Shown piece after piece: positions 9,277-36,800 of a stretch of 64,000 bases of DNA. How positions within the stretch are numbered: position 1 is the first letter of the stretch; the number at the start of each line of letters is the position of its first letter. A program made the translations under genes and the position numbers. The notes beneath the pieces are model-generated. The model did no database searches. It saw only the letters and a program-made list of their open reading frames with translations, and was not told the DNA's origin. The DNA comes from Planctomycetota bacterium (GTDB taxonomy: Bacteria; Planctomycetota; Planctomycetia; Pirellulales; Pirellulaceae), in the NCBI GenBank assembly GCA_016872775.1, contig VGZA01000032.1, positions 1 to 64,000 on the forward strand, in the 5' to 3' direction.

Positions 9277-9346
9277 TTAGCCTCCTTGGGCCCGAAGGGA
9301 TTTTTCGCCGTGCCGCCGGGGGCTCACCTCAGCCGCCCGCGTCCGA

Positions 9347-10418: not shown

Positions 10419-10431
10419 CCGCGGCGCCGCT

Positions 10432-11001: not shown

Positions 11002-11224
11002 ATTTGCGGCCCTGCGGGGGGGAAGATAATTGACAAGGTCGTTCGTCATAAGTCAATATGTGATAAAGACCACTGTGCGTGAAATCCCGCGAAAATCAAG
11101 CGGGATAGCGGCACGGTCCATGGACAAAGATCGAACCCGCATTCGCGGACCATTCGCTTTCGGCCTTGGATTGGCTCGACGGTTGCGAGCCCAACCGGCA
11201 GGTTTTACAAGGAGATCGTCATCG

Positions 11225-12949
11225 ATGGCCCGTACTCGTGACTTCACGGAGATTCTCATCCGGCGTGGCATAATCAGCCCCGATCAGCTGCGCGAAGCGA
11301 AACAAGTCGCCCAGGAATCGAACGCCAAGCTGCACGAGACGATCGTGAAGTTGGGTTACGCCAGCTGGGACGAGGTGATGCGCGCGATGGCCGAGGCGTT
11401 CAGCCTGGAATATATCGACCTGCGTGAAGTCCAGATTCCGGAATCGGTGATCGAGTTGGTCCCCGAGTCGGTGGCCCGTGAAAACTCGATCCTGCCGATG
11501 TCCGAGGACGACGGCGCGCTGCGGGTCATCGTGAGCGACCCCAACGATCTGGATACGACGGAAAAGTTGCGGTTTATTCTCAACCGCAAGGTCGATATCG
11601 CGCTGGCGCCGCGCGAGTCGATCATGGAGGCAATCAACCGCTACTACGGGCAGATCGAAGGCGAATCGGCTGACTCGATGCTGCAAGAATTCACCGATAC
11701 GGCGATCGACTTTACCCAGACGTCCGAAGACCACTCGACCAGCGCCGAAGTGGTCGATGAAAACAGCGCACCGATCGTCAAGCTCGTGCAATTGATGATT
11801 ACCGAGGCGGTGGCGTTGCGGGCATCGGATATCCATGTGGAGCCGTTCGAGGACCGGGTACGGATTCGTTATCGCATCGATGGGGTGCTCGTGGAACGGG
11901 ACAGCCCTCCCCGCCGACTGCTGGGTGCCATCATATCGCGCATAAAGATCCTGGCAAAAATGGACATCGCCGAGCGTCGCCGGCCGCAGGACGGCCGGAT
12001 CAAAGTCACCGCCGGCGATAAGGAACTTGACCTGCGCGTGAGCATCATCCCGACCAATCACGGTCAGTCGTCGGTGATGCGGCTGCTGGACAAAGACAAT
12101 ATCAAAGTCGGCATCCGGCAATTAGGTCTCGGCGAACGCGACTTCACCAATTTCCAGAACCTGATCCGCCGGCCGAACGGGATCGTGCTGGTGACCGGCC
12201 CGACCGGCTCCGGCAAGACGACAACCCTGTATGCGGCATTGAACGCATTGAACCGACCGGACCGCAAGATTATTACGGCGGAGGACCCGGTCGAGTATTA
12301 CTTGCCGGGGGTCAACCAGGTCGAGGTGAAGCATGGTATCGGGCTCGATTTCGCTCGAATTATCCGTTCGATGTTGCGGCAAGCACCCAACGTCATTCTT
12401 GTCGGCGAGATGCGGGATACTGAGACCGCATCGATGGGTATTCAGGCAAGTCTGACTGGACACTTAGTATTTAGTACACTACATACAAACGATTCGCCCA
12501 GCGCTGTAACACGCATGGTAGACATGGGTGTTCCAGGATATCTGGTCGCAAGCAGCGTAATCGCGATCCTTGCCCAGCGGTTGGTGCGGGTCATTTGTAC
12601 GCGATGCAAGGTTCCGAATCCGTTGTCGGAAGCGGTCCTGAACGATGCGGGGATTCCGTTGGAGATTGCCAAGACGGCGAACTTCGTGCGCGGCAAGGGA
12701 TGCAACTATTGCAACAAGAAAGGTTTTCGCGGGCGCCTTGGCATTTTTGAACTTCTGTTGATCACCAGCAAGTTGCGCGAGTTGATTTTCAAGAACGCGT
12801 CGGCCTACGAACTGCGCATGCTGGGGATCTCGCAAGGGATGCGGACGCTCTACATCGATGGGCTCGACAAAGTCGTACGCGGGATTACGACTTTGGAAGA
12901 GGTCTACCGCAGCGCGAAGCGCATGGAGGGGGACGAGTTCAAAGCCTGA
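11225..12949 (+). CDS. gspE: GspE/PilB-type secretion/pilus assembly ATPase (1)
   Basis: The 574-aa product is a cytoplasmic hexameric motor ATPase. An N-terminal MshEN-like domain (about 1-150) precedes the AAA+ core: Walker A 'GPTGSGKTT' near 325-333, Asp box and Walker B 'LVGEMRDTETA' near 392-402, and a tetracysteine zinc site CTRC...CNYC at about 458 and 493. The ATG at 11225 follows AAGGAG; the open frame extends further upstream without conserved sequence. First gene of a same-strand cluster (ATPase, pilT, ATPase, gspF, four prepilins, giant GspK-like). A short run at 12457-12495 uses rare AT-rich codons, unlike the rest of the gene. Confidence 0.95.
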   Translation: MARTRDFTEILIRRGIISPDQLREAKQVAQESNAKLHETIVKLGYASWDEVMRAMAEAFSLEYIDLREVQIPESVIELVPESVARENSILPMSEDDGALRVIVSDPNDLDTTEKLRFILNRKVDIALAPRESIMEAINRYYGQIEGESADSMLQEFTDTAIDFTQTSEDHSTSAEVVDENSAPIVKLVQLMITEAVALRASDIHVEPFEDRVRIRYRIDGVLVERDSPPRRLLGAIISRIKILAKMDIAERRRPQDGRIKVTAGDKELDLRVSIIPTNHGQSSVMRLLDKDNIKVGIRQLGLGERDFTNFQNLIRRPNGIVLVTGPTGSGKTTTLYAALNALNRPDRKIITAEDPVEYYLPGVNQVEVKHGIGLDFARIIRSMLRQAPNVILVGEMRDTETASMGIQASLTGHLVFSTLHTNDSPSAVTRMVDMGVPGYLVASSVIAILAQRLVRVICTRCKVPNPLSEAVLNDAGIPLEIAKTANFVRGKGCNYCNKKGFRGRLGIFELLLITSKLRELIFKNASAYELRMLGISQGMRTLYIDGLDKVVRGITTLEEVYRSAKRMEGDEFKA

Positions 12950-13111: not shown

Positions 13112-14248
13112 ATGGCACAGATTCTGATCGACAAACTACTGCAAGCCTGCGTAAAGCAGGGCGCCAGCGATATTCACATCGTCGTGGGTCAGCCTCCGGT
13201 GTTCCGACTGCACGGTCGAATGCGGAAACTGGAAACCAAAGTACTGGAGGCGGACGATTCGGTGGCGCTGATGAAGAGCATCACGCCGAATCGTTGCCAG
13301 GAGGAGTTGCAGCAGAACGGCAGCACCGACTTCGGCTTTGCGTTTGGCGACCAGGCCCGTTTCCGCGTGTCGGTCTTCAAGCAGCGCAGCTTTATTTCGA
13401 TGGTGTTGCGGCAGATTCCCAACAGCATGTTGACTCCCGAGCAGTTGGGGTTGCCGGAGGTCTGCACGAAACTGGCGTTGCGCCCCCGCGGCCTGTTTCT
13501 GGTGACGGGGCCGACCGGATCGGGCAAAAGCACAACGCTGGCCAGTCTGATCAATTTCATCAACGAAAATGTGGATCACCACATTATTACGATCGAGGAT
13601 CCGATCGAGTTTTTCCACTATCACAAGAAATCGACGATCAACCAGCGGGAGATTGGCGTCGATGTGCCGAGCTTTTCCGAGGCGATTCGGCGCGCGTTGC
13701 GGCAGGATCCGGACGTGATTCTGGTCGGCGAAATGCGTGACCTGGCGACGATCGAGGCGGCGATTACGGCGGCCGAAACGGGGCATATCGTATTTGGCAC
13801 GTTGCATACCAACAGTGCCCAGGGAACCGTAAACCGAATTATCGATGCTTTTCCCGGCAACCTTCAGGACCAGATTCGCACTCAGTTGGCCAGTTCCTTG
13901 ATCAGCGTCGTCGCGCAGACACTGTTGCCGAAAATCGGCGGTGGTCGCGTGGCGGCGTATGAGATCCTGGTGGTGACGCCGGGGATCGCGAACCTGATTC
14001 GCGAGAACAAGACGTTTCGAATCACCTCGGCGATTCAGACCGGGGCCAAGTTCGGGATGAATTTAATGGACGATGCGCTGTTCAAATTATGGCGCGAGGA
14101 AAAGTGCACGGTCGAAGACTGCCTCGGCAAGGCCCATTCCCCCGACGATCTGGCGAAACGGATCGTGAATGCCAGGCGGGGCATCGCCGATGAGGTGCCC
14201 GCGGGAGAATTCGACCACAGCGGCGCGCAATCGGGCGGCGGGCATTGA
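13112..14248 (+). CDS. pilT: PilT-type retraction ATPase
   Basis: The 378-aa product matches PilT, which powers pilus disassembly. Seen: N-terminal 'ASDIHIVVGQPPVFRLHGRMRKL', Walker A 'GPTGSGKSTT' near 132-141, 'IITIEDPIEFFHYHKKS', Walker B 'ILVGEMRDLATIEAAI' near 203-218, and the 'GHIVFGTLHTNSAQGTVNRI' His box. It lacks the cysteines found in the flanking PilB-type ATPases. GAGGCG precedes the ATG at 13112. Its place between two assembly-type ATPases suggests one machine with extension and retraction, rather than a pure secretion system. Confidence 0.95.
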   Translation: MAQILIDKLLQACVKQGASDIHIVVGQPPVFRLHGRMRKLETKVLEADDSVALMKSITPNRCQEELQQNGSTDFGFAFGDQARFRVSVFKQRSFISMVLRQIPNSMLTPEQLGLPEVCTKLALRPRGLFLVTGPTGSGKSTTLASLINFINENVDHHIITIEDPIEFFHYHKKSTINQREIGVDVPSFSEAIRRALRQDPDVILVGEMRDLATIEAAITAAETGHIVFGTLHTNSAQGTVNRIIDAFPGNLQDQIRTQLASSLISVVAQTLLPKIGGGRVAAYEILVVTPGIANLIRENKTFRITSAIQTGAKFGMNLMDDALFKLWREEKCTVEDCLGKAHSPDDLAKRIVNARRGIADEVPAGEFDHSGAQSGGGH

Positions 14249-14337: not shown

Positions 14338-16056
14338 ATGGCTCTTCGCAGATTCGGACAGGTACTGGTCGACCTCGGCTACATCAGCGATGACCAACTC
14401 GAATTGCTGTTGGAGGAGCAGTCGGCTCATCCCGGCGAGAAGCTCGGCAAGATCGCCGAGGAAATGGGCCTGATCACGGACGAGCAGATCGCCACGGCCC
14501 TGGCCGAACAGATGGGGATGCAGGTCATCAACCTGGGCGACACGAATATCAACCGGCTGTTGCTCAAGGAGATCACCGAAGCGATGGCGCAGATGTATCG
14601 CGTCATCCCGATCAAGCTGGAGGACGACGTGCTGACGGTCGCGACCAACGAGCCGCAGAACATCTCGATTCAGGACGAGCTCCGCACATTTCTCGGCAAG
14701 GAAATCCGCGTGGTGGTCGCGGCCGAATCCGAGGTGAAAAAAGCGCTTGACCGCTATTACGCCTCGGAGACGGAAAGCGTCGAGACGATCATCCGCGACC
14801 TGGAAAACGACGTCGAGTTGAAAAAAGCGGCGGAGGCCATTGCGACGGACGGTCCGATCGACCTGACCAGCGTCGAAGCGCTGGCCGACAGCGCTCCGGT
14901 GCGAAAACTGCTGAACATGGTGTTGCTGCTGGCGATCAAGGACCATGCCAGCGATGTTCACTTCGAGCCTTTCGAGGACGAGTTCCGCATTCGGATCAAG
15001 TCGGACGGCGTGTTGTACGAAATGGTTCCACCGCCTCGCCATCTCGCCTTCGCGATCACCACTCGTATCAAGGTGATGGCGAACCTGGACATCGCCGAAC
15101 GCCGACTGCCGCAGGATGGCCGGATCGAACTGACGGTCGGCGGCCACCCGGTCGATCTTCGCGTCTCGGTGCTGCCGACGCTGTTTGGCGAGAGCGTCGT
15201 CATGCGGGTGCTGGACCGCTCGGTGGTGTCGCTCAATCTGAACAAGGTCGGCATGGACCCGCCGACGCTCAAGGCGTTCCGCGAGGTGATCGGCCGGCCC
15301 AACGGAATTATCCTCGTCACGGGTCCGACCGGATCCGGCAAGACCACGACGCTCTATTCGGCGTTGAGCGAACTCAACTGCCTGGAAGACAAGCTGATTA
15401 CGACCGAGGATCCGGTCGAATACGACATTGACGGCATCGTTCAGATTCCGATCGATTCCGATATCGGCGTGACGTTCGCGGCCTGCCTGCGCGCCATCCT
15501 TCGCCAGGACCCCGATGTGATTCTGGTAGGCGAGATCCGCGATCTGGAGACGGCGCAGATCGCGGTGCAGGCATCATTGACCGGCCATACGGTATTCAGC
15601 ACGCTGCACACCAACGACGCGCCGAGCACGGTGACGCGGTTGAAAGACATGGGAGTGCCCACGTTTCTGATCACGGCCACACTGGAGGCGATCTTGGCGC
15701 AACGGCTGGTGCGTCGCATCTGCAGCCAGTGCCGCGAGATCTCGATGCCCTCCGAGGAGATGCTGGCGGAACTGGGCCTGTTCCCGCACGATGTAACGGA
15801 GCAGAAATTCTATCGCGGACGCGGCTGCGACGTTTGCAACAACACCGGATACAAGGGCCGCGTGGGATTATTCGAGCTGATGGTGATGAACGAGGAATTG
15901 AACGAAATGATCATGCGGAATGCCTCCATCGACGAACTGCGCCAGGCGGCGCAGCGTTATGGGATGGTCGGGTTGCGGCAGACCGGGATGGCGTTCGCCG
16001 CCGACGGCGTCACCACGCTGGAGGAAGTTGTGCGGGAAACGATCCAGGAAGCCTGA
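14338..16056 (+). CDS. gspE: GspE/PilB-type secretion/pilus assembly ATPase (2)
   Basis: A 572-aa paralogue of the product at 11225-12949. The N-terminal MshEN-like domain ('FGQVLVDLGYISDDQLELLLEEQ') precedes Walker A 'GPTGSGKTT' near 328-336, Walker B 'LVGEIRDLETA' near 398-408, and paired cysteines CSQC (about 462) and CDVC (about 497). All catalytic residues seem intact, so both copies could be active. It is followed 79 bases later by the gspF-like gene, whose product such ATPases bind. Whether this copy or the first is the partner of GspF cannot be decided from sequence. Confidence 0.95.
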   Translation: MALRRFGQVLVDLGYISDDQLELLLEEQSAHPGEKLGKIAEEMGLITDEQIATALAEQMGMQVINLGDTNINRLLLKEITEAMAQMYRVIPIKLEDDVLTVATNEPQNISIQDELRTFLGKEIRVVVAAESEVKKALDRYYASETESVETIIRDLENDVELKKAAEAIATDGPIDLTSVEALADSAPVRKLLNMVLLLAIKDHASDVHFEPFEDEFRIRIKSDGVLYEMVPPPRHLAFAITTRIKVMANLDIAERRLPQDGRIELTVGGHPVDLRVSVLPTLFGESVVMRVLDRSVVSLNLNKVGMDPPTLKAFREVIGRPNGIILVTGPTGSGKTTTLYSALSELNCLEDKLITTEDPVEYDIDGIVQIPIDSDIGVTFAACLRAILRQDPDVILVGEIRDLETAQIAVQASLTGHTVFSTLHTNDAPSTVTRLKDMGVPTFLITATLEAILAQRLVRRICSQCREISMPSEEMLAELGLFPHDVTEQKFYRGRGCDVCNNTGYKGRVGLFELMVMNEELNEMIMRNASIDELRQAAQRYGMVGLRQTGMAFAADGVTTLEEVVRETIQEA

Positions 16057-16135: not shown

Positions 16136-17539
16136 ATGCCGATGTATCAATTCGAGGCGATGGACGCGACGGGTCAGGAAATTCGCGACCAGATCGAGGC
16201 GGCCACGGAGGAAGAGGCGCAGACCACCATACGCCAGATGGGCTTTTTCATCACGCGGATTTCGGCGGTCAAGGCCGCGTCGGCGGTCGGCAGCAAGGGC
16301 GGCAAGCGCAAGCGGCCGTTCGGAATCGGCGGCGCCAGCGGCAAAGCGATGTGCACCTTCACACGGCAGCTGTCGATCCTTCAGGACGCCGGCCTGCCGG
16401 TGCTGCGAAGCCTGAAAATCCTGGAAGGCCAGTCGAAGCCCGGGCGGTTGAAAAACGCGTTGATGGATGTCTGCGATGAAATCGAGTCGGGAGCGACGCT
16501 TTCGGAAGCGATGGCCAAGTCGCCGCGGGTCTTCAGCCGACTGTACATCAACATGATCAAGGCCGGCGAAGCGGGCGGCGCGCTGGAAGTGATTCTGCGG
16601 CGTCTGGCCGAGTTCATGGAACGATCCCAATCGCTGAAACGCAAGATCCGCGGCGCGATGATCTATCCGATCGTCGTGATCCTGGTGGCGATCGGCATCT
16701 TGACCTTCATCATGATGAAAATCGTGCCGGTGTTCGAAAAACTGTTCCGCGATTTCGAATTGAAACTGCCGCCGCCGACGCTGATTCTGATCGCCATCTC
16801 GAACTACTTGTTCCAGTACTGGTGGGCATTTTTCCTGTTCCCGATCAGCGTGATCCTGTTCATCATGCTGGTTCGTAAATTCAAACATGGGCGAATGGGC
16901 TGGGATCTCTACATTCTCAAGATCCCGGTCATCGGCAACCTGATCGAGAAGAACATTCTGGCGCGTACCACGCGTACCCTGGGGACGCTGGTTTCCAGCG
17001 GCGTGCCGATTCTGGAGGGACTGACGATCACGCGCGAAACCTCGGGCAACGCGATGTTCGAGTTGATTTTCCAGAAGGTGACCGACGCGATCCGCGAGGG
17101 TGAAACGATCGCCAAACCGATGCGCCAGTATTCGCGGCCGCCGTTCCATCCCGTGGCCGCCTTTTTCTGGTTCGCCACTCCGGCCGTACCGCTGTCCACC
17201 GTGATGTTTCTGCCCGGACCCGACATGCTGACCTGGGGCCTGTACCTGGCCGGCGCGGGCGGCGCGCTGGGTGCCCTGTTCTATCTCACTCGCTTTAACA
17301 CACGCGTCGTCGACGACCTGGTGGTGAACATGGTCGACGTGGGCGAGGAGACCGGTGAGTTGGACACGATGCTCTACAAAGTCGCCGACTACTACGACGA
17401 GGAAGTTTCGACATTGACCGACGGCTTGGTAAAGCTGCTGGAGCCGATGATGATCATTTTCCTCGGCGGTGCGGTCGGTTTTATCGTGATTTCGTTGTTC
17501 CTGCCGCTTGTGGAACTCATCCAGAAATTGTCGGGGTGA
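16136..17539 (+). CDS. gspF: GspF/PilC-type inner-membrane platform protein
   Basis: The 467-aa platform protein organises the ATPase and pseudopilus. Two GspF domains are visible: one around 70-190 ('FTRQLSILQDAGLPVLRSLKIL', 'MIKAGEAGGALEVIL'), another around 270-460 ('RTLGTLVSSGVPILEGL', 'VNMVDVGEETGELDTMLYKVADYYDEEV'). Membrane spans are predicted near 176-198, 222-246 and 440-460. An extra hydrophobic stretch of about 60 residues (near 335-390) splits the second domain where most family members read straight into the 'VGEETG' helix; usual length is about 400-410. GGGGAA precedes the ATG at 16136. Confidence 0.93.
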   Translation: MPMYQFEAMDATGQEIRDQIEAATEEEAQTTIRQMGFFITRISAVKAASAVGSKGGKRKRPFGIGGASGKAMCTFTRQLSILQDAGLPVLRSLKILEGQSKPGRLKNALMDVCDEIESGATLSEAMAKSPRVFSRLYINMIKAGEAGGALEVILRRLAEFMERSQSLKRKIRGAMIYPIVVILVAIGILTFIMMKIVPVFEKLFRDFELKLPPPTLILIAISNYLFQYWWAFFLFPISVILFIMLVRKFKHGRMGWDLYILKIPVIGNLIEKNILARTTRTLGTLVSSGVPILEGLTITRETSGNAMFELIFQKVTDAIREGETIAKPMRQYSRPPFHPVAAFFWFATPAVPLSTVMFLPGPDMLTWGLYLAGAGGALGALFYLTRFNTRVVDDLVVNMVDVGEETGELDTMLYKVADYYDEEVSTLTDGLVKLLEPMMIIFLGGAVGFIVISLFLPLVELIQKLSG

Positions 17540-17695: not shown

Positions 17696-18625
17696 ATGAA
17701 AACCAGACTCGCGGCACGGCAAGGTTTTACCTTGGTCGAATTGCTGATTGTGATCGTGATCATTGTGATCATTGTGGCGTTCACCGTCCCGGCGGTCATG
17801 AGCGGAATCAACAAAGCGAAAGTCTCGCAGATCGTCACGGAACTGACCCAGTTGCAAAGCGCGATCGAGCAGTACAAGACCGAGAATGGCGGCGTCTACC
17901 CACCCGATTTCACCGGGTACCCGGAGACCACCGTGTTCGAAAACGAACTGCGGGCCCATGTCGGCAAGTGTTTTCCGCGCTGCTCGCAGGACCTCACCGC
18001 CTGGCGCGATCTGCACCTGGGCACCGCGAAACTATTCAAGCCCTCCACGCTCGACCCGGCCGAGGCCCTGGTCTTCTGGTTGTCGTTGGTCCGGAACAAT
18101 CCCCAGCAGCCGTTGCCCTGGTTCGACGGGACGGCGCGGGACAACTCTACGGGAACAACCAAGAGCTACTTTACATTCATCGAGACCCGCTTGAAGGATC
18201 TAGATGGGGACGGCTGGCCGGAATACTACCCGCCCAATTCGCCGTTCGCGCCCTACGTCTACTTCAGCAACCGCTCGTATCGGGTCCAGGGGTTGAGCTT
18301 GGATTACGGTTACCCCCGCAAGTCGCTCAATGCCACCTACCCGCAGCCCAATTACCTCGGTTCCTTCGGCCGGGCGCGCCCGTACGCGACCAAGGTCGAT
18401 CCGATGAACCAGGCCAACGTGCTGCAATGGGCACAACCGGAAAAGTTCCAGATTATCTCGGCGGGACTCGACCAGTACTTCGGCGACGAGACGATCAACC
18501 CCAACGTCGCGACGCTGGTCCTGCCAAAATTGTTTCCGTTCGGCGAGAACTACACGCCGGTGGTGGAAGAGGACAATATCACGAATTTCTCGAACGGCCG
18601 CACGGTCGGCGGCAATCGACCTTGA
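17696..18625 (+). CDS. gspG: Major-type pseudopilin, GspG-like, enlarged
   Basis: A prepilin with class III signal 'RQGFTLVELLIVI': cleavage after Gly10, Glu at +5 of the mature chain, and a hydrophobic helix to about residue 35. The following 'QIVTELTQLQSAIEQYKTENGGVYPPDF' is the GspG-type alpha1/loop. The mature part (309 aa total) is about twice the usual GspG length, with an aspartate-rich loop 'LDGDGWPEYYPP' that may bind calcium, and a C-terminal block rich in Tyr and Asn. AAGGAG is placed well before the ATG. It would be cleaved by the A24 peptidase encoded at 50095. First of four prepilin genes in a row. Confidence 0.9.
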   Translation: MKTRLAARQGFTLVELLIVIVIIVIIVAFTVPAVMSGINKAKVSQIVTELTQLQSAIEQYKTENGGVYPPDFTGYPETTVFENELRAHVGKCFPRCSQDLTAWRDLHLGTAKLFKPSTLDPAEALVFWLSLVRNNPQQPLPWFDGTARDNSTGTTKSYFTFIETRLKDLDGDGWPEYYPPNSPFAPYVYFSNRSYRVQGLSLDYGYPRKSLNATYPQPNYLGSFGRARPYATKVDPMNQANVLQWAQPEKFQIISAGLDQYFGDETINPNVATLVLPKLFPFGENYTPVVEEDNITNFSNGRTVGGNRP

Positions 18626-18692: not shown

Positions 18693-19781
18693 ATGCATGG
18701 CGCAATGAAAAAACGCGAGCGACCTGGCTTCTCGTTGCTGGAGTTGCTGGTGGTGATCGCCATGATCGCGCTGATCGCGAGCGCGATCCTATTCGCGATG
18801 TTCGGCGCGCTCGAGGAAGCCAAAGGGGCTCGAACCCGCGCCGAAATCACGCGCCTGCACGAGATCATCATGGAACGGTACGCCGCTTACGAGTCGCGTT
18901 CGCTGCAGATTCCGGCGATGGCCGCGCTGTCGCGGCTGCCCGATCCCCGCGAAGTGGCACGCGTACGCGTGCTGGCGATGCGCGACCTGATGCGGTTGGA
19001 ACTGCCCGACCGGATTACCGATGTCGCGGATGTCGGGCCGAATTCGGCGGGTCCAACCGAATTGCGCATGTACTATCCCAACATCTACGCCGCAAACGGC
19101 ACCCAGTTCGTGAACGTCAGGCTCGCCCCTCCGTCGCTGCACTTGAGTTACCGTAAGCGGGCGACGGCCGCGACGGTCAGTTGGTCGGAGGCGCATCAAG
19201 GCGCCGAATGCCTGTACTTGATTGTCTCGTCGATCCACGAAGAGGGCGGCGACCCGATCGATTTTTTTGCATCTTCGGAAATCGGGGACGTCGACCTGGA
19301 CGGCATGCCGGAATTCCTCGATGGCTGGGGAAGGCCGATCGGCTTTTTTCGCTGGGCGCCTGGTTTCGAATCGCCGATGCAGTTGGCCAACCCGGAGACC
19401 AACCCGGATCCGTTTGATCCGCTGAAAACGGATGTGCGTTGGAATCCCCCACCGCCACAGGTGCCACAGCCAGTGAAAGCGGGACTTTTGCCCGGCACCT
19501 ATCGGCTGGTTCCGCTGATTTATTCCGCGGGGAGAGACGGCCTGGTCGACATGGTCGACCAGGGGTCGGCGTTCCATTACAAGCAGACGCCGCTGTTGAC
19601 GGCGCTGCAAACTGCCACGACCCCCCCCTACTGCACACTTGGCGCGAAAGTTTATCCCAACGATCCCTATTACTTCGACACCGGTTCCGGCTACCTGATG
19701 GGCCAGGAACTGGATGTGAATGGCGATGGCATCCTGGGCTACCTGGACAACATTACGAATCATTTGATTGAGGTGAAGTAA
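18693..19781 (+). CDS. Prepilin-type minor pseudopilin (2)
   Basis: The 362-aa protein has a prepilin leader 'RPGFSLLELLVVI' (cleavage after Gly12, Glu+5) and a long hydrophobic helix. The mature domain is unusually large and includes 'GDVDLDGMPEFLDGWGRPIGFF', an Asp-rich loop like calcium sites of GspG, and ends 'ELDVNGDGILGYLDNITNHLIEVK'. Function in the tip or shaft of the fibre cannot be assigned. The stop overlaps the next start (TAATG), so translational coupling with the following prepilin gene is likely. An alternative start is the ATG at 18705 (MKKRERPG). Confidence 0.87.
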   Translation: MHGAMKKRERPGFSLLELLVVIAMIALIASAILFAMFGALEEAKGARTRAEITRLHEIIMERYAAYESRSLQIPAMAALSRLPDPREVARVRVLAMRDLMRLELPDRITDVADVGPNSAGPTELRMYYPNIYAANGTQFVNVRLAPPSLHLSYRKRATAATVSWSEAHQGAECLYLIVSSIHEEGGDPIDFFASSEIGDVDLDGMPEFLDGWGRPIGFFRWAPGFESPMQLANPETNPDPFDPLKTDVRWNPPPPQVPQPVKAGLLPGTYRLVPLIYSAGRDGLVDMVDQGSAFHYKQTPLLTALQTATTPPYCTLGAKVYPNDPYYFDTGSGYLMGQELDVNGDGILGYLDNITNHLIEVK

Positions 19782-21136
19782 TGGAGACCGGGAGTCGACA
19801 AACCGGGAGCCGACGGTCGGCGAATGGCAACCGCGCGGCGAGCGCGTTCACCGTCATTGAGATGCTGGTGGTGTTGGGTATTATCGCGCTCTTGATAGCC
19901 GCGGCGATTCCACTGATCAAGCCGGCGTTCAAGGACCGCAAACTGCGCGAAGCATCCCGGCAGTTAAATGCCTTGTTCGCGGCGGCGAAGGCGCGGGCCG
20001 CCGAGCATGGCCGGCACGTGGCGATCTGGTTCGAGCGGGATCCGAACATCCCGAATCGCTGCCTGGATATCTACATGGCCGACGTCCCGGCGCCGTACGC
20101 GGGAGACGTTTCCGGCGCGCGGGCGCTGGTGCGATTCAATCCGACGCTGGCGAACAACCTCCGCAAACCGAACGAAAATTTTCTGCTGAAGTGGCAGTTG
20201 GACTTTGCGTACAACGCGACGCAACACGCGGCCAACACCATGCTGGTCGATACCTACAGTCTGATCAAGGTTGGCGAGAGCTTTTTGATTCGGTTCGAGA
20301 ATCAGGGGGCGTTTTACGCCTGCACGCGGATCGAATCCGGAATGGCCAACAATCCCTCGGACGACGTTTTCGCAATCTCGATTCCGCCGGAACCGGGCCC
20401 CTACCCGCTCCCCTACCCGAACTATCCGGCGATGGTTCCGCTCCTGGAACCGTTCCCGAAAGGGCAGCCTCCCGAGGGCGGCTGGCACAAAGGTCAAGAC
20501 GGAGAATGGGGCGTAGCGAATGTCGACGATGACGGCGACAACGTGATCGGTAATATCCGCGAGGCGGGAATGGGCAACGGGGACGACGTAGCGATCGGCT
20601 TGAGTTACCAGATCTATCGCCGCCCGATGAAGTCGGCGCGGTCCTCGCTGCAGATGCCGAATGGGACCGCGATCGACTTGGGATTTTCGGGAATCTCCGC
20701 GACGGGAAAACAGTTTGACGCCTATCCGGCGCTGGGCAGCGCTTCGTTGACGCCGACCACGCAGCCCGTGGTCGTTACGGTGACGCCGACCGGCAGCGTC
20801 GACCGGGTCTATCTGGGAACGGACAGACCGTTCTTAAGTGTCGAGGGGACGGTGCACCTGCTGGTGGGACACAACGATCTGACGACCGGTGTCAACTTGC
20901 CGGATTCGGGCGACCCGATTCCTCCGCCGGCACTTCCTCCGCTGCTGCAATCACTGGCGACGACCAACATCGGCGATACCACCTGTTATTGGGTTTCGTT
21001 CGGTAATCGCACGGGAGGAGTGGCAACGGAGAACAACGCGGACTTCAATCTGCCGATTCCGATCGTCAACCTCGGCGACCTTTTGGCCAATTCGCGGCAA
21101 TTGGTTCGTTCGTCCCAGTCCAAGGGAGGTGGGTGA
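19781..21136 (+). CDS. Prepilin-type minor pseudopilin (3), GspH-like
   Basis: 451 aa. The prepilin site reads 'ASAFTVIEMLVVLGIIALL': Glu+5 is kept, but the residue before the cleavage point is Ala22 rather than the usual Gly. After the helix comes 'DRKLREASRQLNALFAAAKARAAEHGRHVAIWFE', resembling GspH/FimT. Near residues 245-272 lies 'NVDDDGDNVIGNIREAG..NGDD', an acidic module that also appears in the giant protein at 22466 ('GIDDNNNMIVDELAEAG..GSDD'). It overlaps the previous gene by one base and the next start is at its stop, so the three prepilins form a tightly coupled unit. Confidence 0.86.
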   Translation: METGSRQTGSRRSANGNRAASAFTVIEMLVVLGIIALLIAAAIPLIKPAFKDRKLREASRQLNALFAAAKARAAEHGRHVAIWFERDPNIPNRCLDIYMADVPAPYAGDVSGARALVRFNPTLANNLRKPNENFLLKWQLDFAYNATQHAANTMLVDTYSLIKVGESFLIRFENQGAFYACTRIESGMANNPSDDVFAISIPPEPGPYPLPYPNYPAMVPLLEPFPKGQPPEGGWHKGQDGEWGVANVDDDGDNVIGNIREAGMGNGDDVAIGLSYQIYRRPMKSARSSLQMPNGTAIDLGFSGISATGKQFDAYPALGSASLTPTTQPVVVTVTPTGSVDRVYLGTDRPFLSVEGTVHLLVGHNDLTTGVNLPDSGDPIPPPALPPLLQSLATTNIGDTTCYWVSFGNRTGGVATENNADFNLPIPIVNLGDLLANSRQLVRSSQSKGGG

Positions 21137-22392
21137 TGATCGCGGAGAATTTGGTCGGCATTCGTTCCGCGTATCGCGCGGGGCTCAGCCTGATGGAGGT
21201 ATTGATTTCGATCGCGGTCATCGCGATCGGATTGTTGGGAGTCGCGGTGCTGCTGCCGGTGGCGGGCAAGGCGGCGCGGGACGGAATCACGTACGACAAC
21301 GCGACCCGTGTCGGCCAGAACATGCTTCGCGAGTTCCAACTGCGTGGTTTCGCGCAGCCGGACGCCTGGTACTCGGCCGACAACACGGTACCGCCGATCG
21401 TGGTGCAACAGATCAACAATACCAACACGATGACCTGCGACCTGGTATTCGGGGTGAATCCGTCGTACGAGGCGTTTGTCGACGACCGTCAACCGGGTCC
21501 GATGGGCCCGACCTCGTTGAATCAGCGGATCCCGTTGGAAACGGGCGACACGTTGACCCAGCCCGACCCAGGCTACCAGGGCATTGACGTCGGCGCGTCT
21601 TCGGTGCGATTGGCCCGGCACAAAAAGGCGTTCTGCATCGATCCACTGTTTTACGCTCGCCAGATTGCAAATAACAACATCACCATCCCCACCTTGTCGT
21701 CGAACCGCTACACATTTTTCCCGGCGATTGCGGTGAGCCAGGCGGACGAACCGCGGATGAAGCGGGTTACTTTGCGCAACAGTGCAGGTGGCGGACCGAT
21801 GCTGTTATCGCAGGCCGACAAGATCTTCCGCTACTCGGACGATCTGTCGTTGGAAACCGATCGTGATCCGTTGATTCTCCCCAAGCAGATTTTCGCCAGG
21901 GAGCCGAACACCGGTCGCGATGTGGTGCGCGAATCGGAAGGTCGGCTGTCATGGTTCGCCACGATCGCGCCGCGGACCACGATGCTGGCCGACCAACAGG
22001 ACCTGTACACGCTGTCGATCGTGGTCTGCCGGGCGCGCACGTTTTTTGGCATTGAGGAACAGATGGCGTTCGTCTCCGGGGCTACCGGCGCGGGGGTCGG
22101 CGGCGGCGAGGTAGAGCTGACGAGCAGTTTGCCGATGTCGTTGCGTCAAGGCGACTGGTTGATGCTGGCGCGGTACCACGATTTCGGGTCGGGATTCGAA
22201 CCGCTGTTCAAATGGTATCGCGTTTCGGCGACGGACGGAGTAACCAATGTAGTGAAGGCCGATGTGACATTGCAGGGACCAGACTGGAATTTCGATCCGG
22301 TTCTCATTACCTACGCTTTTCTTGTCAATGATGTCGTGGCGGTATACGAGCGGACGATCCGGCTCGATACATCGTCCTTGTGGGGATATTGA
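21136..22392 (+). CDS. Prepilin-type minor pseudopilin (4), PilV/GspI-like
   Basis: 418 aa from the ATG at 21136, which overlaps the preceding TGA by one base; a GTG at 21133 is an alternative. The prepilin leader 'YRAGLSLMEVLISIAVIAIGLLGV' with Gly16 and Glu21 (+5) and the 'IAIGLLGVAVLLPVA' helix resemble PilV/GspI-type minor pilins. The mature part is much longer than the 120-180 residues of those families and has no domain I recognise. It ends 73 bases before the giant GspK-like gene, to which it may act as partner in a tip complex by analogy with GspI-J-K (inference). Confidence 0.86.
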   Translation: MIAENLVGIRSAYRAGLSLMEVLISIAVIAIGLLGVAVLLPVAGKAARDGITYDNATRVGQNMLREFQLRGFAQPDAWYSADNTVPPIVVQQINNTNTMTCDLVFGVNPSYEAFVDDRQPGPMGPTSLNQRIPLETGDTLTQPDPGYQGIDVGASSVRLARHKKAFCIDPLFYARQIANNNITIPTLSSNRYTFFPAIAVSQADEPRMKRVTLRNSAGGGPMLLSQADKIFRYSDDLSLETDRDPLILPKQIFAREPNTGRDVVRESEGRLSWFATIAPRTTMLADQQDLYTLSIVVCRARTFFGIEEQMAFVSGATGAGVGGGEVELTSSLPMSLRQGDWLMLARYHDFGSGFEPLFKWYRVSATDGVTNVVKADVTLQGPDWNFDPVLITYAFLVNDVVAVYERTIRLDTSSLWGY

Positions 22393-22465: not shown

Positions 22466-25400
22466 ATGGCTCGACGACGAAAACCAAATCGCGGCGTGGT
22501 GTTGCTGGTCGTGATCAGCCTGCTGGTGCTGTTTGTACTGATCGCCGTGACGTTCGCGCTGGTGGCCGGCCAATATCGTTCAACAGCGCGGACGATGGCC
22601 AAGGTCGATGCGCATCAAGGCCCACCCGAGACGGAAGTCGAAAAAGCGCTTTACGTGCTGCTGCGAGACACCAAGTTCCGATCCTCCCTGCAAGGCCATG
22701 CGCTGCTTTCGGATCTATATGGTCCGGGAGCGCGAGGTCGCGTGGCGCAGGCGACGGGCGCGAATCCGAATCCGGTCGTGATAGCGGTCCAGGGCCAGTT
22801 CGTCCGGATTTTCTTCGACGGCTGGGATACCAGCCGCAACTCGACCGGCGCTACCGCTTACAACAATCGCTTGTTCCGACGACTGGCCGGGTCTTATAAC
22901 GGTCGCGTCCTGACGATGCTATCGGGAAGTGCGAAAGGGCTGAGCACGCGAATCGTCGCGTACAACCCGCCGCAGTTCAACAACATGGGTGTGCAGACGG
23001 CACAAGGGGAATTTCGCATCGAGGCGTTTGAATCCGATGTTGGGGGCATCGTGACGCCCGCTGCGGGCGATCTGTTCCTGGTGAATGGCGGTGCGTTCAA
23101 CGGAAGCGGCGCTGGTTTCTCCGCCGCGACAGGCAACATCGATCAAATGACATTTGATCCGGGCCCTGACGGGGGCTGGGGCAACGCCGGTATCGACGAC
23201 AACAACAACATGATCGTCGATGAGCTAGCCGAAGCCGGCTTTGCCGGATCCGATGACCTGGCGATTCCCGTGGTACTGGCGCCGAATTATTCGGCTCATC
23301 TGCAGCAGGCGATTCCGCCCCTGTTCGGAGGAGCCAACGAATCGTACGACTCGCCGGATTACAACAACATGTTCTTGGCTAGCGTACCCATTTCGAATCC
23401 TATTTTGATACCAAGTAATAGTACTCCAACATACCCAGTGAATCGAATTTACCCGTCGTTTCACCGTCCGGATCTGGTCAACTTCTGGTTCAGGCAGTTG
23501 CAGGGATCGGTGTTGAGCAGCATCGCGTCGCCGGCGGACCAGGCATTGGTATTCTGGTTTCCCTATGGGCTCAGCAACGACCGCAACGGGCCGGATGTTG
23601 ATCTCCGACCGGTCGACAGCGACGGAGATGGTTTCCCGGAAACGCCGGGGGCGGCGATGGGCGTTTCGATTGGAATTCGTGACACGATCGTTCGCATCAA
23701 ACGGATGATCATGCTGCGCCCGCTGAATGAACTGAATCCCGGTTTCGCTCAGAGCAACATCGCCTTCATGCGCGGCCGCACGTTGAACAACGGGAATCTG
23801 GAGTGGAATTTTACGCCCGACGTCGATACCGATGGTGACGGGGTGAAGGACAGTGTCTGGGTCGATCTGGGATTTCCGCCGACAACGGGCAAAGACGGCC
23901 GGCGCTTCAAGACCATGGTTGCCGTGAAGATCGAGGATCTGGACGGGCGACTGGACATCAATGCCCATTCCAGTTTCGTGCACAACTCCACGAATTGGAC
24001 CACCCAGTATCCGATCGCCACGTCGGCCGGCCAGGGTGCCGGATTCAATCCCTTGCCGCGCGGATTAGGTTACGGCCCAGCGGAAGTGAATCTCTCGCGG
24101 CTGTTTCAAACCGAATTTGATGCCCTGCTCAATTCGCGCTACGGACTCGACCTGCGCCCTGGTGCCGTCGGCAACGATCCGCTCAGCCGATTCAAGGCAT
24201 TTGAGCTGGTGGACAACTATTTCCTCTCGCTGCAATTGACCAGTTCCTATGCCAGTCCGCCGGACGTCTGGGGGCGGGGAGGAATCGCGCTGGACCATTA
24301 TGGGCAACCGCAATTCCTGGGCGGCATGGGTACTGGGGAGACGGTGGACGATCCGTACGAGTTCAATCGCGCGGACCCGAGTCTGGCCATCGCGGGTGGG
24401 GATCAGCCGTACACCGTGGCCGACCTGGAACGGATCTTGCGCTACCATGACGCTGGCGCCGTGGACTTATCGAGTCGTCTGTTGAACGTCGCGCCGTTCA
24501 CGCTGAACTACGGCGGCGGTGCCGCGCAGAACCGCCACCTGATCACTTCGGAAAGCTCGCACATTCCGGTAATCAATTCCCCCTATCCCGATCTGAAGAT
24601 CAACAACAATTCGATGCGCCAGGGCCTGTTCTCCATAAGCCCGTTTTCGGGCCACTCCGACGTGCATTTTCTGGAGCTTTATGTCCGCCGTTTGTTGGCG
24701 GGCGGAGTCACGCAGGCGAACCTGCTGGGCGAACTTGCCAAATTGGTGCCGATGGAAGTGCTGCACGGTGAGATGTTTGACATCAATCGGCCGATCGGAA
24801 ACGGCATCGACGACAACGGAAACGGGGTGATCGACGAACCACTCGAAGGCGGCCTGATCGAGGGAATCTGGAACGCGAGCTTTCCGCCCTATTCCGGGCG
24901 CGGCACCTCCAACCGGTTGAACGACGATCCGGTGATCGGCGATCCGACGATCAGCCGTCAGATCATGGCCCGGCACCTGTACTGCCTGGCGATGTTGATG
25001 AAAGAAGATGGCGTGGAAATCGACTTCAATGGCAACCCTGGCGACGACACGCCCCTGGAAACTGCATACGGCTTGGCGCAGTGGGCGGTGAACGTGGTCG
25101 ACTTCCGCGATTCGGATGCGATCATGACGCCGTTCGAATTCGACATCAATCCTTTCCAGGACGGCTGGCAAGTGAATGGATTGATTGGGCAGGCGGATGG
25201 CAACTCCGCGCAGCCCGATGACAATCAACCGTTCCGTGGACTCGTGTGGGGCTGCGAGCGGCCCGAGTTAATGCTTTCAGAGACTCTGGCATTCCACGAT
25301 CGGCGGACCGAGGACCTTTCCGGTCCGGGACACAATACGACAAACGCCGCGAACAACCCGGATCCACACTTTGATCAGCGACTGCGACCGCACGGATCGT

Positions 25401-27778
25401 TCTTCGTCGAGTTATACAATCCCTGGACCGCCGATACCAAGATGCCCGCCGAACTGTACTCCACCGTGAATGGCGAAACCGGCATCTTTTTGAATCGTCG
25501 GGTCAATGGCAACGGAACTCCAATCTGGCGATTAGTGGTCGTGAGTGGTAACAATCTCTCCGGGGATCTGGACAGTCCCGATCCGGCGATCGCGACTCCC
25601 ATCGCGCCGGCGGACATCGAACGCACCGTTTATTTCGCCGACCCAGGTCTCCAGATCGGGTCGGGCACACAGTATTTCACCAGCAACAACATCCCGATCG
25701 CTCCACTCCTGCCCGGCCGCTACGCGGTGATCGGACCGCCAGGGGAAATTGTCGGCAATCCTAATTCGTATGTCACGACGATCGGCCGTTTGCTCGCGAA
25801 CCAGAACATCGACGGTGCGGGACCGGCGAACACACGACGGATCATTCTGACGCCGAATACCAGCGCCAACGTCGATCAAGTATCGACATCGGACATGATT
25901 CCCGCGCCCGGCAACGTGCCGCCGGGTCTGAGCGTCAAACCGGAACCGATTCGACCGACGAACAATGCTCCGGGCGATCGGATGCCGGCCATCGCCGTCG
26001 TCGTCGATTCGCCCCTGGGTCTGAGCGTTTCCGAACCGACGAATGGCTATACGAATAACAACTTCAACATCAACGGCGCGAACGGGGAGGGTGCATACGA
26101 TCCAGTCTACGACGAGCCATTCGACTGGAATCGGGAGAACAACGAACTCCGCATCAATCAGACGATCGGTTCGTTTCGAATCGTGCACCTGCAGCGACTC
26201 GCCGATCCTACCCTGAACTATGACGCCGTCGCCAATCCCTACCGTACGATCGATTCGATGTACGTGAATCTCACCGTATTCAACGGGGTGAGCCTCGGCG
26301 AAACGAATGGTGAAACACGATTCCATTCTTTGCAGCGAGGCGACAGCGAAAGCCAGAACCCGTACCCGTATGCGGTCGATAACAATCCCCTGGTACCGGT
26401 GGGTGGCGAACCGTCGTTTTCGCGGCAGTTGTATCGCAACGAACCGCCATCGTTCGCTGCCCCGGGACCGGTTCCGAGTACCGACGCGGGCGTGCAGAAC
26501 CTTGTCTCCGACCACGTCTACAGGTTCGGACTGCGGAATTCGCTCGGTTACTTGAACAACAACTACTGGCCGTACATGACCCTGGCGGCGGCGCCCAACC
26601 TGAACTATCGTGGTGCTCCCGACGCGCGCCACAATTCCACGAACAATCGTCTTGCCTTCCCCTGGTTGACCTGGAACAACCGGCCATTCAATTCGCCCGC
26701 CGAGCTGATGCTGGTGCCGTGGACCCGTTCGTCGCGATTGCTGACGCGCATTCCGGATGCGACGGTTTTGGTAACAGAGGATCCGTATACGCAGCAATAT
26801 CTATTTGCCGATCCGGGCAATCCCAAACCGTCCCACCTGCTGAATTTCTTCCATTCCACGGGTACCGGTGCTAACGCACCGGCCAAGCTGTTCCGCATTT
26901 TCGATTACGTCAACGTCCGTTCGCCCTATGTGGGAACTGAGAAATGGTATTTCCCGGGACTGGACCTCAACAACGACGGCGATTACTCGGACGCGGGCGA
27001 GTATCCCGGATTTGGCGGGGCGCCTTACGATCCGCTCGCCGCGACGTTCCGACCGCCCTATAACCGGCTGTCGCGGTTCCGCGACCCAGGCCGCATCAAT
27101 TTCAATACGGCGGCGATCGACGGCGGGAACAGTCCCGTACTGGCCGCGATCCTGGGTGACTCGATCGATCCCGCGGGACTCAATCCTGGCAGCCTGACCG
27201 CTGCGATCAACAACATCCGTTTGTCGCGGCAGGGATTCGCCGACCCCGCGCCCGCCAATGAAGCATTGTACAACCCTGACTTCCCGACCATGTTCTCGAA
27301 TCCACTGCGGCCGGAAGCCAGTGCCGATATGATGCCCGCGATCGGCAATGGTCCTTCGCACATGCGGCGCGATGGGCAGGGAACGCATCAGGGCCCGATC
27401 GACGCAACCCTGTTGCGTCGCGGCATAGCGGGATCGACGCCATTGTTCGACAACACTGCCACCGACCCGTATGCCGACACCCGTCGCAATCCGTATTTCC
27501 GTTTCCAGGCCCATACCAAGGTCAACAACCTGCTCTCGGGCCATTCCAACGTCTTCGCGGTCTGGATTACCGTCGGGTATTTCGAGTTGGAGCCGACCAA
27601 CGTCAGCACGATTAATCCGGACGGATTCCGCTTGGGGCGCGAGGTCGGATCGGAAAACGGGGACGTGCGGCGTCACCGAGCGTTCTTCGTGATCGATCGG
27701 TCGATCCCGGTTGCCTTTGAACCGGGCGAGAACCACAATGTCGATCGTTGTGTGCTGCTGCGTCGCGTTGTGGAATAG
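22466..27778 (+). CDS. Giant GspK/PilX-like tip protein, 1,770 aa
   Basis: The N-terminus 'RGVVLLVVISLLVLFVLIAV' after Gly10 is the PilX_N/GspK type: a prepilin-like helix without Glu at +5, as in fibre-tip subunits. The following 1,730 residues are unlike ordinary GspK (about 330 aa). They contain acidic, EF-hand-like loops: 'GIDDNNNMIVDELAEAG' (about 242-258), 'DVDTDGDGVKDSVWVDLG' (about 452-469), 'GIDDNGNGVIDEPLEGG' (about 780-796) and 'LDLNNDGDYSDAGEYPG' (about 1500-1516). The last is followed by 'RFRDPGRINFNTA'. The arrangement recalls Verru_Chthon cassette protein A with B-D prepilins (family knowledge, not tested). AACGGGAG-like sequence precedes the ATG. Confidence 0.84.
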   Translation: MARRRKPNRGVVLLVVISLLVLFVLIAVTFALVAGQYRSTARTMAKVDAHQGPPETEVEKALYVLLRDTKFRSSLQGHALLSDLYGPGARGRVAQATGANPNPVVIAVQGQFVRIFFDGWDTSRNSTGATAYNNRLFRRLAGSYNGRVLTMLSGSAKGLSTRIVAYNPPQFNNMGVQTAQGEFRIEAFESDVGGIVTPAAGDLFLVNGGAFNGSGAGFSAATGNIDQMTFDPGPDGGWGNAGIDDNNNMIVDELAEAGFAGSDDLAIPVVLAPNYSAHLQQAIPPLFGGANESYDSPDYNNMFLASVPISNPILIPSNSTPTYPVNRIYPSFHRPDLVNFWFRQLQGSVLSSIASPADQALVFWFPYGLSNDRNGPDVDLRPVDSDGDGFPETPGAAMGVSIGIRDTIVRIKRMIMLRPLNELNPGFAQSNIAFMRGRTLNNGNLEWNFTPDVDTDGDGVKDSVWVDLGFPPTTGKDGRRFKTMVAVKIEDLDGRLDINAHSSFVHNSTNWTTQYPIATSAGQGAGFNPLPRGLGYGPAEVNLSRLFQTEFDALLNSRYGLDLRPGAVGNDPLSRFKAFELVDNYFLSLQLTSSYASPPDVWGRGGIALDHYGQPQFLGGMGTGETVDDPYEFNRADPSLAIAGGDQPYTVADLERILRYHDAGAVDLSSRLLNVAPFTLNYGGGAAQNRHLITSESSHIPVINSPYPDLKINNNSMRQGLFSISPFSGHSDVHFLELYVRRLLAGGVTQANLLGELAKLVPMEVLHGEMFDINRPIGNGIDDNGNGVIDEPLEGGLIEGIWNASFPPYSGRGTSNRLNDDPVIGDPTISRQIMARHLYCLAMLMKEDGVEIDFNGNPGDDTPLETAYGLAQWAVNVVDFRDSDAIMTPFEFDINPFQDGWQVNGLIGQADGNSAQPDDNQPFRGLVWGCERPELMLSETLAFHDRRTEDLSGPGHNTTNAANNPDPHFDQRLRPHGSFFVELYNPWTADTKMPAELYSTVNGETGIFLNRRVNGNGTPIWRLVVVSGNNLSGDLDSPDPAIATPIAPADIERTVYFADPGLQIGSGTQYFTSNNIPIAPLLPGRYAVIGPPGEIVGNPNSYVTTIGRLLANQNIDGAGPANTRRIILTPNTSANVDQVSTSDMIPAPGNVPPGLSVKPEPIRPTNNAPGDRMPAIAVVVDSPLGLSVSEPTNGYTNNNFNINGANGEGAYDPVYDEPFDWNRENNELRINQTIGSFRIVHLQRLADPTLNYDAVANPYRTIDSMYVNLTVFNGVSLGETNGETRFHSLQRGDSESQNPYPYAVDNNPLVPVGGEPSFSRQLYRNEPPSFAAPGPVPSTDAGVQNLVSDHVYRFGLRNSLGYLNNNYWPYMTLAAAPNLNYRGAPDARHNSTNNRLAFPWLTWNNRPFNSPAELMLVPWTRSSRLLTRIPDATVLVTEDPYTQQYLFADPGNPKPSHLLNFFHSTGTGANAPAKLFRIFDYVNVRSPYVGTEKWYFPGLDLNNDGDYSDAGEYPGFGGAPYDPLAATFRPPYNRLSRFRDPGRINFNTAAIDGGNSPVLAAILGDSIDPAGLNPGSLTAAINNIRLSRQGFADPAPANEALYNPDFPTMFSNPLRPEASADMMPAIGNGPSHMRRDGQGTHQGPIDATLLRRGIAGSTPLFDNTATDPYADTRRNPYFRFQAHTKVNNLLSGHSNVFAVWITVGYFELEPTNVSTINPDGFRLGREVGSENGDVRRHRAFFVIDRSIPVAFEPGENHNVDRCVLLRRVVE

Positions 27779-33833: not shown

Positions 33834-36800
33834 TCAGAATATTTCCCGTGAATCGATAGCATACCTACCAGGCGGACGCCTGCGGAGCCGGTCGATATCC
33901 CTTGCCAATTCCGTGATCAGGTCTTCGAACGTTCGTGAAGTTCGCGGCCCGACATTACTTCCGAATTCAAGCGGTGCCGGCAACGGCGAGACAACCACGG
34001 ACAGGGTCTGGGGCAAACCGGGCGTCTGCTGCCGCGAAGCGGGCGAGGGGGAACGCAGTGAAAAATCGTCGTGCGCGGCGGACACTTTCGGCGGTTTGCC
34101 GGCGATCGACCGGGGCTCGTGAGCCGCCACCCAAGTCAACGGCGTTCGTGAATCGTCGGCCGGTTCCCCTTCCCCGCCCGGTCGCACCAGATGATTCAAG
34201 GCGTTGATTATCACCAGCGCGTCCAGTGGCGCAATGTCGTCGCCACCCGCGGCATCGTAGTAGGGTGCACGCAGCGCAAGACTCTCCGGAATCCGACCAC
34301 TGCCAAAACGATTGATGTAGTTGATCACCAGCAGGGCATCGAGCGGCGCGAGCAAACCGTTGCCGTCCACATCCAGCGGGTCAACGGGGTTGGTCCAGCG
34401 CAGCCGCTGGTTACCGAAATCGTGGCCGGCACTCGTCCCGTTTTCGGGTACATCGATACGATGCCGCTGCGCGGGCGCTACGCGATTGCGAACGAGCCCC
34501 AGCGAGTCATCCAGCAGGCTCATGATCAGGTCGTCATGACCATCACCGTCCAGATCGCCAATCGCCATCGACCCGCTACTGTTCGCGTTGACGGTATGCT
34601 CCGGTTCGAAGGTGCCGTCTCCGCGCCCACGCAGGATACTCACGATCTGGTCCACCGCGCTGGAAAGCAACAGGTCGGCAATCTGGTCTTCGTCGAGATC
34701 TCGGACCAGAATTTCCGCAACGGGGTGTTCGAGCGTCAGCGAAGCACCGGGCGAAAATGTCCCTGTTCCAGAATTGAGATAGACATCGATCGCATCGTTG
34801 CCGAACAGTTTCACCAGCAGGTCGGGTAGTCCGTCACGGTTGAGATCGGCCACCGTCACGCTCTCGGGATGGCCGTTCAGATCCATCCGCCGCTCCTGCT
34901 GGAAAATCCCTTGCCCATCGTTGCGCCACAGCGAAAGCGTGTCGGAATATTCGCTGTATGCGAGCAGGTCGTCACCCTGTCCCGGTAAAAAATCGGCCGA
35001 CTCGACTCCCACCGGCAATTCGGGCGGTACCAGCACCGGCGTCGCGAAGGACCGGTCCCCTGCGCCATACAGCGCGGAGAGCAGCGAGCTACCATCGTTT
35101 CCGGTGTGGGACACGAGTAGATCGAGCCAGTTATCGCTGTTCAGATAGCCAGTCGCGAGCTGTTCGAAGCGCGGCGGTAGCGCAATCCGGTCGCCGAGCG
35201 TCAGCGATCCGGCTCCGTCATTCGCAAGAATCGCGATCGTCCCCTGCCCTCGCAGCGCCGCCGCGAGGTCGATATCGCCGTCGCGATCCCAATCTCCCAT
35301 GACCAGATCGCTGGGCTGGGCCGGCAGGGTCACCTGGCCACCCAGCACAAAGTTCCCGGTGCCGTTGTTGAACAGCGTCACGATCGAATTTCCCAACGCA
35401 CTGACAACCGCAATATCGAGATCGTGATCCGCATCCAAGTCGATCAGCGCCGAGGCGCGCGGCATCCGCACCGGACCTCGCCGTTGTTCCGTATCGAACT
35501 GTCCGCCGCCCGAATTAAGCAGGATCGACAGATCGTTGCTGAACTCGTTGGAAACCATCAGGTCGAGATCACCATCGTCATCCAGATCGCCCGCCGAAAT
35601 GTAGCCCGGTCGAAATCCGACGCCGTAGCTGACACCATTGGAAAACAATCCGCCTCCAAGATTGAATTGCACGAGGAGTTCGTTTTGCAGCGCGTTCAGC
35701 GACACCAGGTCGGGATATTGGTCGCTGTTCAAGTCCGACACAATCAGACTTCCCCGGTCGGCATTGCGTAAGATCGCCAGATCCTGCCGCTCAAAACTGC
35801 CATCGGGTTGACCGACGAGCAGCAACGGTACCAGCTCCAGTGCGAGCGTGCTGGAACGCTGCATCAACAGCAGATCGGTGCCGGAGTCGCCATGGGCGTC
35901 GAGCAGCGTGGCCTGATCGACGGCGCCGTCGAGTTGCAACTGGGCGAGCGACTGGAAATGCCCGGCGCCCAGATTCCGCCAGGTATCAATCAGGGTCACG
36001 GGCACCCGGCGATCGGTGTCAACCCGATTCGCGATCGTGATCATGTCCACGTCGTGATCGGAATCAATATCCGCAGGCAGCAGAAAATCGACCTTGCCGC
36101 CAAGATCGATCCGGGTTGCCGACGATAATCGCCCCACTCCGGAGTTAGCGGCAATCGATAGACTCCCGCTGTCGGCGTCGAATCGCGCAACCGACTGGCG
36201 AAAATGCCCCCACCAGTCGCCCACGAACAAACAGCCTTCTCCACCTGGCATCAGCACCGGAATCGACTCCAATGCCCCGGGCTGGAAACCGATCTGCGTT
36301 CCAGGCCAATTCTGCCGCCAGAACGGTGGAATCCGCTCCGCGACGATATGCTCCCCCGGCGCGACACCCACAAACGAGTAGAACCCATCTGCGTCGGTTT
36401 CGGTTGCCAGTTCGCGCTCGTCCCACACGCCGTTCAAATTGTCGTCGAGGAACAACGTGATTCCCGCTTGGCCGATTTCGCCAAGATCGAATTGTCCATT
36501 GCCGTTCGCGTCCGTCCACTTCCGACCCTGTACCGATCCGGACGCGTCGAGCACGACACCAAAGTCGTTACCCAGTGACTGCTGCCCTTCGACCAGCGCC
36601 ACCCGATGCGAGCCCGTCACCGGATAGGTAGCGTTCCAGCCCGGAGGCGTGACTTGCCGCACGACGTAAGTCACTGGCGGCAGCGAGGCGAATCGGTAGG
36701 AACCGTCCGACAGAGTAAATGTCCAGTTTTCACCGATGTCGATACGACCGTTATCGTTTTGATCCAAGAATACCTGCCAGCCTTGCACGCGCGTTTCGTC

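Follow-up and report, generated by a model that had tools for sequence, protein, structure and literature searches.

The gene located at 22466..27778 (+ strand) of the window (the whole 64,000-nucleotide stretch of a Pirellulaceae genome analysed here) encodes a giant protein of 1,770 aa (about 190 kDa), which its reading frame, its family and its GspK landmarks point to as a GspK-related prepilin. This protein probably is a K-type minor pilin acting as the oversized, ligand-capturing tip of a retractile type IV pilus.

The ORF starts with an ATG at 22466, downstream of a Shine-Dalgarno-like GGGAG run, and stops at 27778. As homologs occur in 54 of the 60 relatives and 40 of 41 related loci share the gene context, the ORF is not due to chance, and the frame proposed in the initial annotation is real. 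The genome carries a single copy. Full-length orthologs in our first alignment measure 1,476-2,899 aa, and open frames of the family reach 3,172 aa in Planctomycetia. A search with a C-terminal profile detected the family in 103 of 118 Planctomycetia genomes, from many families, while a phylum-wide sample of 79 genomes yielded matches in three of the four from Planctomycetia and in none of the 75 from other Planctomycetota classes. The gene is thus old and class-specific rather than a local oddity. Nearly all of the named loci belong to Pirellulales. Some MAGs carry tandem pairs (L144:2666-7645 with 8138-12856, and L104:2-2551 with 2802-7637). A full giant gene is also found in L118, labelled Candidatus Nealsonbacteria, which is probably a misbinned planctomycete contig.

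The protein begins with a class III (prepilin) leader, MARRRKPNRG (22466..22495, +), with a predicted prepilin-peptidase cut after Gly10, followed by VVLLVVISLLVLF, which places a Val at +5. Gly is found at residue 10 in 54 of the 55 aligned family members, and none of the 55 has Glu at +5. The prepilin-like N-terminus without Glu+5 described earlier is confirmed. Three prepilin peptidase genes are present in the genome. A pilin-type N-terminal helix (22508..22666, +) is seen in the AF2 model of residues 1-1100, where it covers residues 15-50 and goes on to 54-67, and this region matches GspK profile positions 1-63 (P 3e-5). The link to prepilins is thus supported, and the tip hypothesis, which the initial annotation would have given up had the predicted structure lacked such a helix, is not refuted by this model.

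The genes preceding the giant one provide its context. In order, and all on the + strand, they encode a first PilB/GspE-type ATPase with an MshEN-like domain (11030..12949; TIGR02538, 609 bits), a PilT-family retraction ATPase (13112..14248; TIGR01420, 449.6 bits, above the cut-off), a second PilB/GspE-type ATPase with an MshEN domain (14338..16056; PF00437, PF05157; TIGR02538, 639 bits), a PilC/GspF platform protein with an extra hydrophobic insertion (16136..17539; PF00482) and four pilins: one GspG-like (17696..18625; PF07963, TIGR01710, 51 bits), two GspH-like (18693..19781; PF07963, TIGR01708; and 19781..21136; TIGR01708, 33 bits) and one PilV/GspI-like (21133..22392; TIGR02523, 32.8 bits). 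The giant gene comes last (PilB-PilT-PilB-PilC-four pilins-giant) and is followed by a dihydroorotase gene. All four upstream pilins have Glu+5, and the giant protein is the only pilin of the operon without it. Of the 41 related loci for which 6.5 kb or more of upstream sequence was covered, 40 have pilins in the same order directly before the giant gene, and within the stretch covered PilC is found in 39 and PilB in 30. This supports a K position for the giant gene, that of the last gene after the pilins.

Several features of these genes were recorded alongside. In the PilC/GspF protein, a hydrophobic stretch of variable length (residues about 338-388) precedes a conserved NMVDVGEETG in all 40 relatives compared (L082-L161). 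PilT is flanked by two PilB-type ATPases, both with MshEN-like N-termini, and the listed TTG start of the first of them is probably too early. Further along the window (33834-37367, - strand), a 1,177-aa protein shows, by eye, SdrD-like B domains, FG-GAP/VCBS-like repeats and a dockerin-like end.

Such a set of genes could also belong to a second type II secretion system, in which the giant protein would be the K subunit of a secretion pseudopilus and its body would recognise cargo in the periplasm. GspK is indeed the closest identifiable relative of the giant protein, the pilins of the operon score best against GspG/GspH-type models, and several secretin genes exist in the genome. However, PilT lies within the operon, and a GspE-F-I-J-K cluster, with a GspK of normal size (597 aa), exists separately in the genome. 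A PilM-like gene is found elsewhere together with a PilQ-type secretin gene, the two being separated by small membrane proteins at the PilN/PilO/PilP positions (with a weak GspM match only). PilB, PilT, PilC, PilM-like, PilQ-type secretin and prepilin peptidase, that is, type IVa machinery, are therefore all present, although the PilB, PilC, PilM and PilQ matches all fall under the curated equivalence cut-offs. Given the PilM-like and PilQ-type genes, the separate Gsp cluster and the prepilin peptidases, we conclude that the operon is a type IV pilus operon with the giant protein in K position, and we consider a secretion pseudopilus unlikely. Very long ORFs with secretin domains (1,262 and 1,413 aa) were observed at G000:C78 (L162) and G000:C15 (L163), both with a lipoprotein-like ORF behind them.

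The relationship to GspK was assessed through profile-profile comparison of the orthologs with a profile of GspK proteins. Local matches were obtained for residues 3-65, 485-501, 1402-1425, 1540-1566 and 1681-1704 of the giant protein, which correspond to GspK profile positions 1-63, 96-112, 162-185, 206-227 and 261-284, respectively. The landmarks thus follow the GspK order: N-terminal helix, DLDGRLNxNAH, PFxSxxELxxVP, REPGRVNxNT and C-terminal strand. The second one, VAVKIEDLDGRLDINAH (23918..23968, +), has an invariant D491 and nearly invariant D493 and N499 among 55 members. The third is TWNNRPFNSPAELMLVPWTRSSRL (26669..26740, +). The fourth, DPGRINFNTA...VLAAILGDS (27083..27163, +; P 3e-4), lies in a region where R1539, P1541, G1542, N1545, N1547 and T1548 are invariant in the 21 full-length orthologs. 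Finally, residues 1681-1770 (27506..27775, +), which rank with the best-conserved segments of the family, form a helix followed by antiparallel strands in the AF2 model of residues 690-1770; their alignment to GspK 261-284 is weak, and they are a candidate for the part that closes the pilin sheet. One additional match is off the diagonal (giant 475-507 to GspK 189-221), and a VDFRDxDSI motif of the family resembles by eye the IDWIDADD-type landmark of GspK, a likeness not recovered by hhalign.

Once the N-termini were excluded, the top collinear chain reached 115.7, against maxima of 39.0 (60 runs) and 31.4 (40 runs) in column-shuffle controls. Block shuffles of the query, in which the motifs are kept and their order scrambled, came much closer (60 runs; maximum 115.4, mean 69.6). 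From these controls the GspK motifs of the giant protein are real, and their order is unlikely to have arisen by chance, even if the block-shuffle control is close. As the collinear landmarks span its whole length, the protein appears to be a K-type (tip-cap) pilin in which insertions have drawn the framework apart, the homology being read from short motifs and their order.

Curated profiles tell little about the family. Pfam and NCBIfam scans of the giant protein and 21 orthologs, as well as Pfam scans of sub-regions, returned nothing informative, and no relative turned up when PDB sequences were searched with two block profiles. Up to E 1, the giant protein is not matched by the GspK profiles (NF037980 and PF03934); across 21 family members, the lowest GspK E-value is 0.13, and no member exceeds the GspK, PilX or TIGR02600 cut-offs. 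The PF03934 matches in the same genome are other proteins, and control genomes match this profile almost everywhere. The protein had initially been described as GspK/PilX-like: the GspK half of this description is supported by the collinear profile landmarks, while the PilX half is not supported, as no Pfam PilX-family match was found.

That no curated profile recognises the protein, and that the landmark matches are short, would suit a membrane-anchored periplasmic or surface protein which has only a prepilin-like signal, is not a filament subunit and acquired GspK-like motifs by convergence. We regard this as very unlikely, since the landmarks keep their order and greatly outscore column shuffles, the operon linkage holds in 40 of 41 loci, and Glu+5 is lost in the giant pilin alone, as in K subunits.

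As a K-type pilin, the giant protein shares with GspK (NF037980, PF03934) a leader without Glu+5, the position of last pilin gene, the collinear landmarks and extra domains within the pilin framework. It differs from GspK in being three to five times longer (1,770 aa, outside the range of about 300-600 aa), in having its landmarks hundreds of residues apart, in falling under the profile cut-offs, in sharing an operon with PilT and in carrying a lamin-tail-domain-like (LTD-like) domain.

Large K-like proteins are already known in the superphylum, as shown by TIGR02600, the Verru_Chthon cassette protein A family. The members of this family and the large K-like proteins of other Planctomycetota classes share with the giant protein a prepilin-like N-terminus and a body of over 1,000 aa. 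That the giant protein simply belongs to this described family is nevertheless extremely unlikely. The TIGR02600 model is of similar size (1,296 positions), one of 21 members of the giant protein's own family matches it weakly (E 0.33), and the upstream pilins weakly match the cassette B and D models. However, the giant protein itself is unmatched at E 0.01 in its own genome and at E 1 in the scan, the membership cut-off (332.3 bits over the 1,296-position model) is not reached, and cassette proteins B, C and D are not found above cut-off next to the giant gene, where the B and D models gave no more than weak, partial matches, as did the C model in a single pilin. TIGR02600 was thus rejected as home family, and membership of it is not supported by the profile check proposed in the initial annotation. 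In Planctomycetota, moreover, nearly only the N-terminal 50-80 positions of TIGR02600 find matches, and these lie in other large proteins, with a compact, N-terminal GspK module. In the large K-like proteins of other classes that we examined, this module is intact (first 365 profile positions, P 2.9e-24) and the rest is appended, whereas in the giant protein the GspK framework is stretched over the whole length.

What lies between the landmarks was approached through two overlapping AF2 models, one of residues 1-1100 (pLDDT 69.9, pTM 0.70), in which the long N-terminal helix is visible, and one of residues 690-1770 (pLDDT 74.7, pTM 0.83). Foldseek against PDB gave no match under E 0.001 for either. 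GspK structures are absent from the fold matches; VIA-align being a second look at the Foldseek matches, this absence decides nothing. No known adhesin or lectin fold was found in the giant protein.

One insertion is an Ig-like, LTD-like region with insertions of its own at residues 930-1338 (25253..26479, +). For this region, VIA-align ranks lamin A/C Ig domains first (Z 5.7-6.3 over 115-118 residues, rmsd 4.6-5.1), the best of them with Z 6.3 over 118 residues at rmsd 5.1; as such a Z is middling, we speak of an LTD-like domain only. Three collinear lamin-tail landmarks, ITE, FxELYN and LxPGxYxV in this order, are found at residues 935-942, 980-985 and 1080-1089. Their chain scores 72.4, against a maximum of 19.7 in 100 shuffles, and is highest in the 930-1338 region. 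The landmarks, which were computed separately, agree with the predicted fold. Like the lamin-tail domain (PF00932), the region has the three collinear landmarks, and its Ig-like match covers the whole lamin A/C domain. In contrast to it, the region has insertions, is set inside a pilin framework and falls under Pfam detection (PF00932 gave no match in the giant protein, 21 orthologs or sub-regions). The lamin-tail profile had 119 and 116 matches in genomes G004 and G044, mostly in very long ORFs, and 0-22 in the other relatives searched.

A second, tentative insertion follows the N-terminal helix: a small beta-barrel at residues 85-207 (22718..23086, +), which VIA-align places next to a GTA virion protein (Z 9.1, rmsd 2.2, 80 residues) and then next to EF-Tu domain-II-like barrels (Z 6-7). 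We treat this likeness tentatively as a common arrangement. With an LTD-like Ig domain and a small beta-barrel, the predicted body would be multi-domain, as had been anticipated from the sequence.

The protein also has acidic loops, of which at least four had been counted initially. Three copies of the strict motif Dx[DN]x[DN]Gxx[DEN] are present (at 384, 454 and 782), whereas shuffled sequences have 0.04 on average and none of 2,000 reaches three. Two looser acidic runs lie near residues 243-252 and 1499-1511, so that the initial count holds loosely. Two loops are conserved across the family. DTDGDGVKD (residues 454-462; 23825..23851, +) keeps the motif in 48 of 55 members, with D454 invariant, and DDNGNGVID (residues 782-790; 24809..24835, +) keeps it in 33 of 55, with D782 in 54 and D790 in 53. 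The 384 loop is found in one of the 55. A metal site is plausible at both 454 and 782, but neither loop is a canonical EF-hand, contrary to the initial reading, because loop position 12, where an EF-hand has Glu or Asp, is Trp for the 454 loop (W465 in 52 of 55) and variable for the 782 loop (residue 793).

These features suggest the following mechanism. The leader would be cut after Gly10, and the hydrophobic N-terminal helix would let the giant protein enter the filament. As Glu+5 is missing, no pilin would sit above it, and it would therefore cap the minor-pilin complex which starts assembly and end up at the filament tip, as expected from GspK and type IV pili. In type IV filaments, the subunit without Glu5 caps the minor-pilin tip complex (PMC10191384). 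We infer this tip position from homology and operon context. The pilin/GspK framework would be split by the LTD-like Ig domain, the small beta-barrel and two probable metal-binding loops, and the tip would display an Ig-like, perhaps metal-stabilised body. GspK likewise has its extra domain set into the pilin sheet (PMC8179133). Extended by PilB and presumably retracted by PilT, the 190-kDa tip would serve as the grip of the pilus on a surface or ligand. A polysaccharide or matrix is our guess for the ligand, because fibres resembling type IV pili are described for planctomycetes, and appendages of Planctopirus limnophila are reported to bind branched carbohydrates (summarised in PMC8303584). 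By our estimate, a 190-kDa tip folded compactly would have a diameter of about 7.6 nm. The lumen of the pilus secretins known so far is about as wide or narrower, which raises the physical question of how so large a folded tip would pass through one.

Modular type IV pilins offer a parallel for such a body. In Streptococcus sanguinis PilB, CofB, TcpB and ComZ (PMC8179133), as in the giant protein, a pilin carries an added functional domain, which the filament probably displays; a tip-exposed position is probable for modular pilins (PMC8179133). These cases are scattered, however, whereas the giant family is kept across a whole class. The extreme modular pilin named in that survey has 860 residues (PMC8179133), so nearly the whole Planctomycetia class would keep a tip subunit two to three times this size, in a family invisible to Pfam and NCBIfam and yet with a GspK framework readable throughout.

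The giant protein offers a concrete candidate, present in single copy, to account for what the surface fibres of planctomycetes attach to, and mutants lacking pilQ-like genes have already been constructed in this group (PMC11958385). Planctomycetia cells are reported to bear carbohydrate-binding fibres that appear to protrude from crater-like surface pits. It is a long shot that these fibres are type IV pili which capture large polysaccharides by the giant tip and pull them in through retraction by PilT. If true, macromolecule uptake would have its receptor in a single protein shared by the class.
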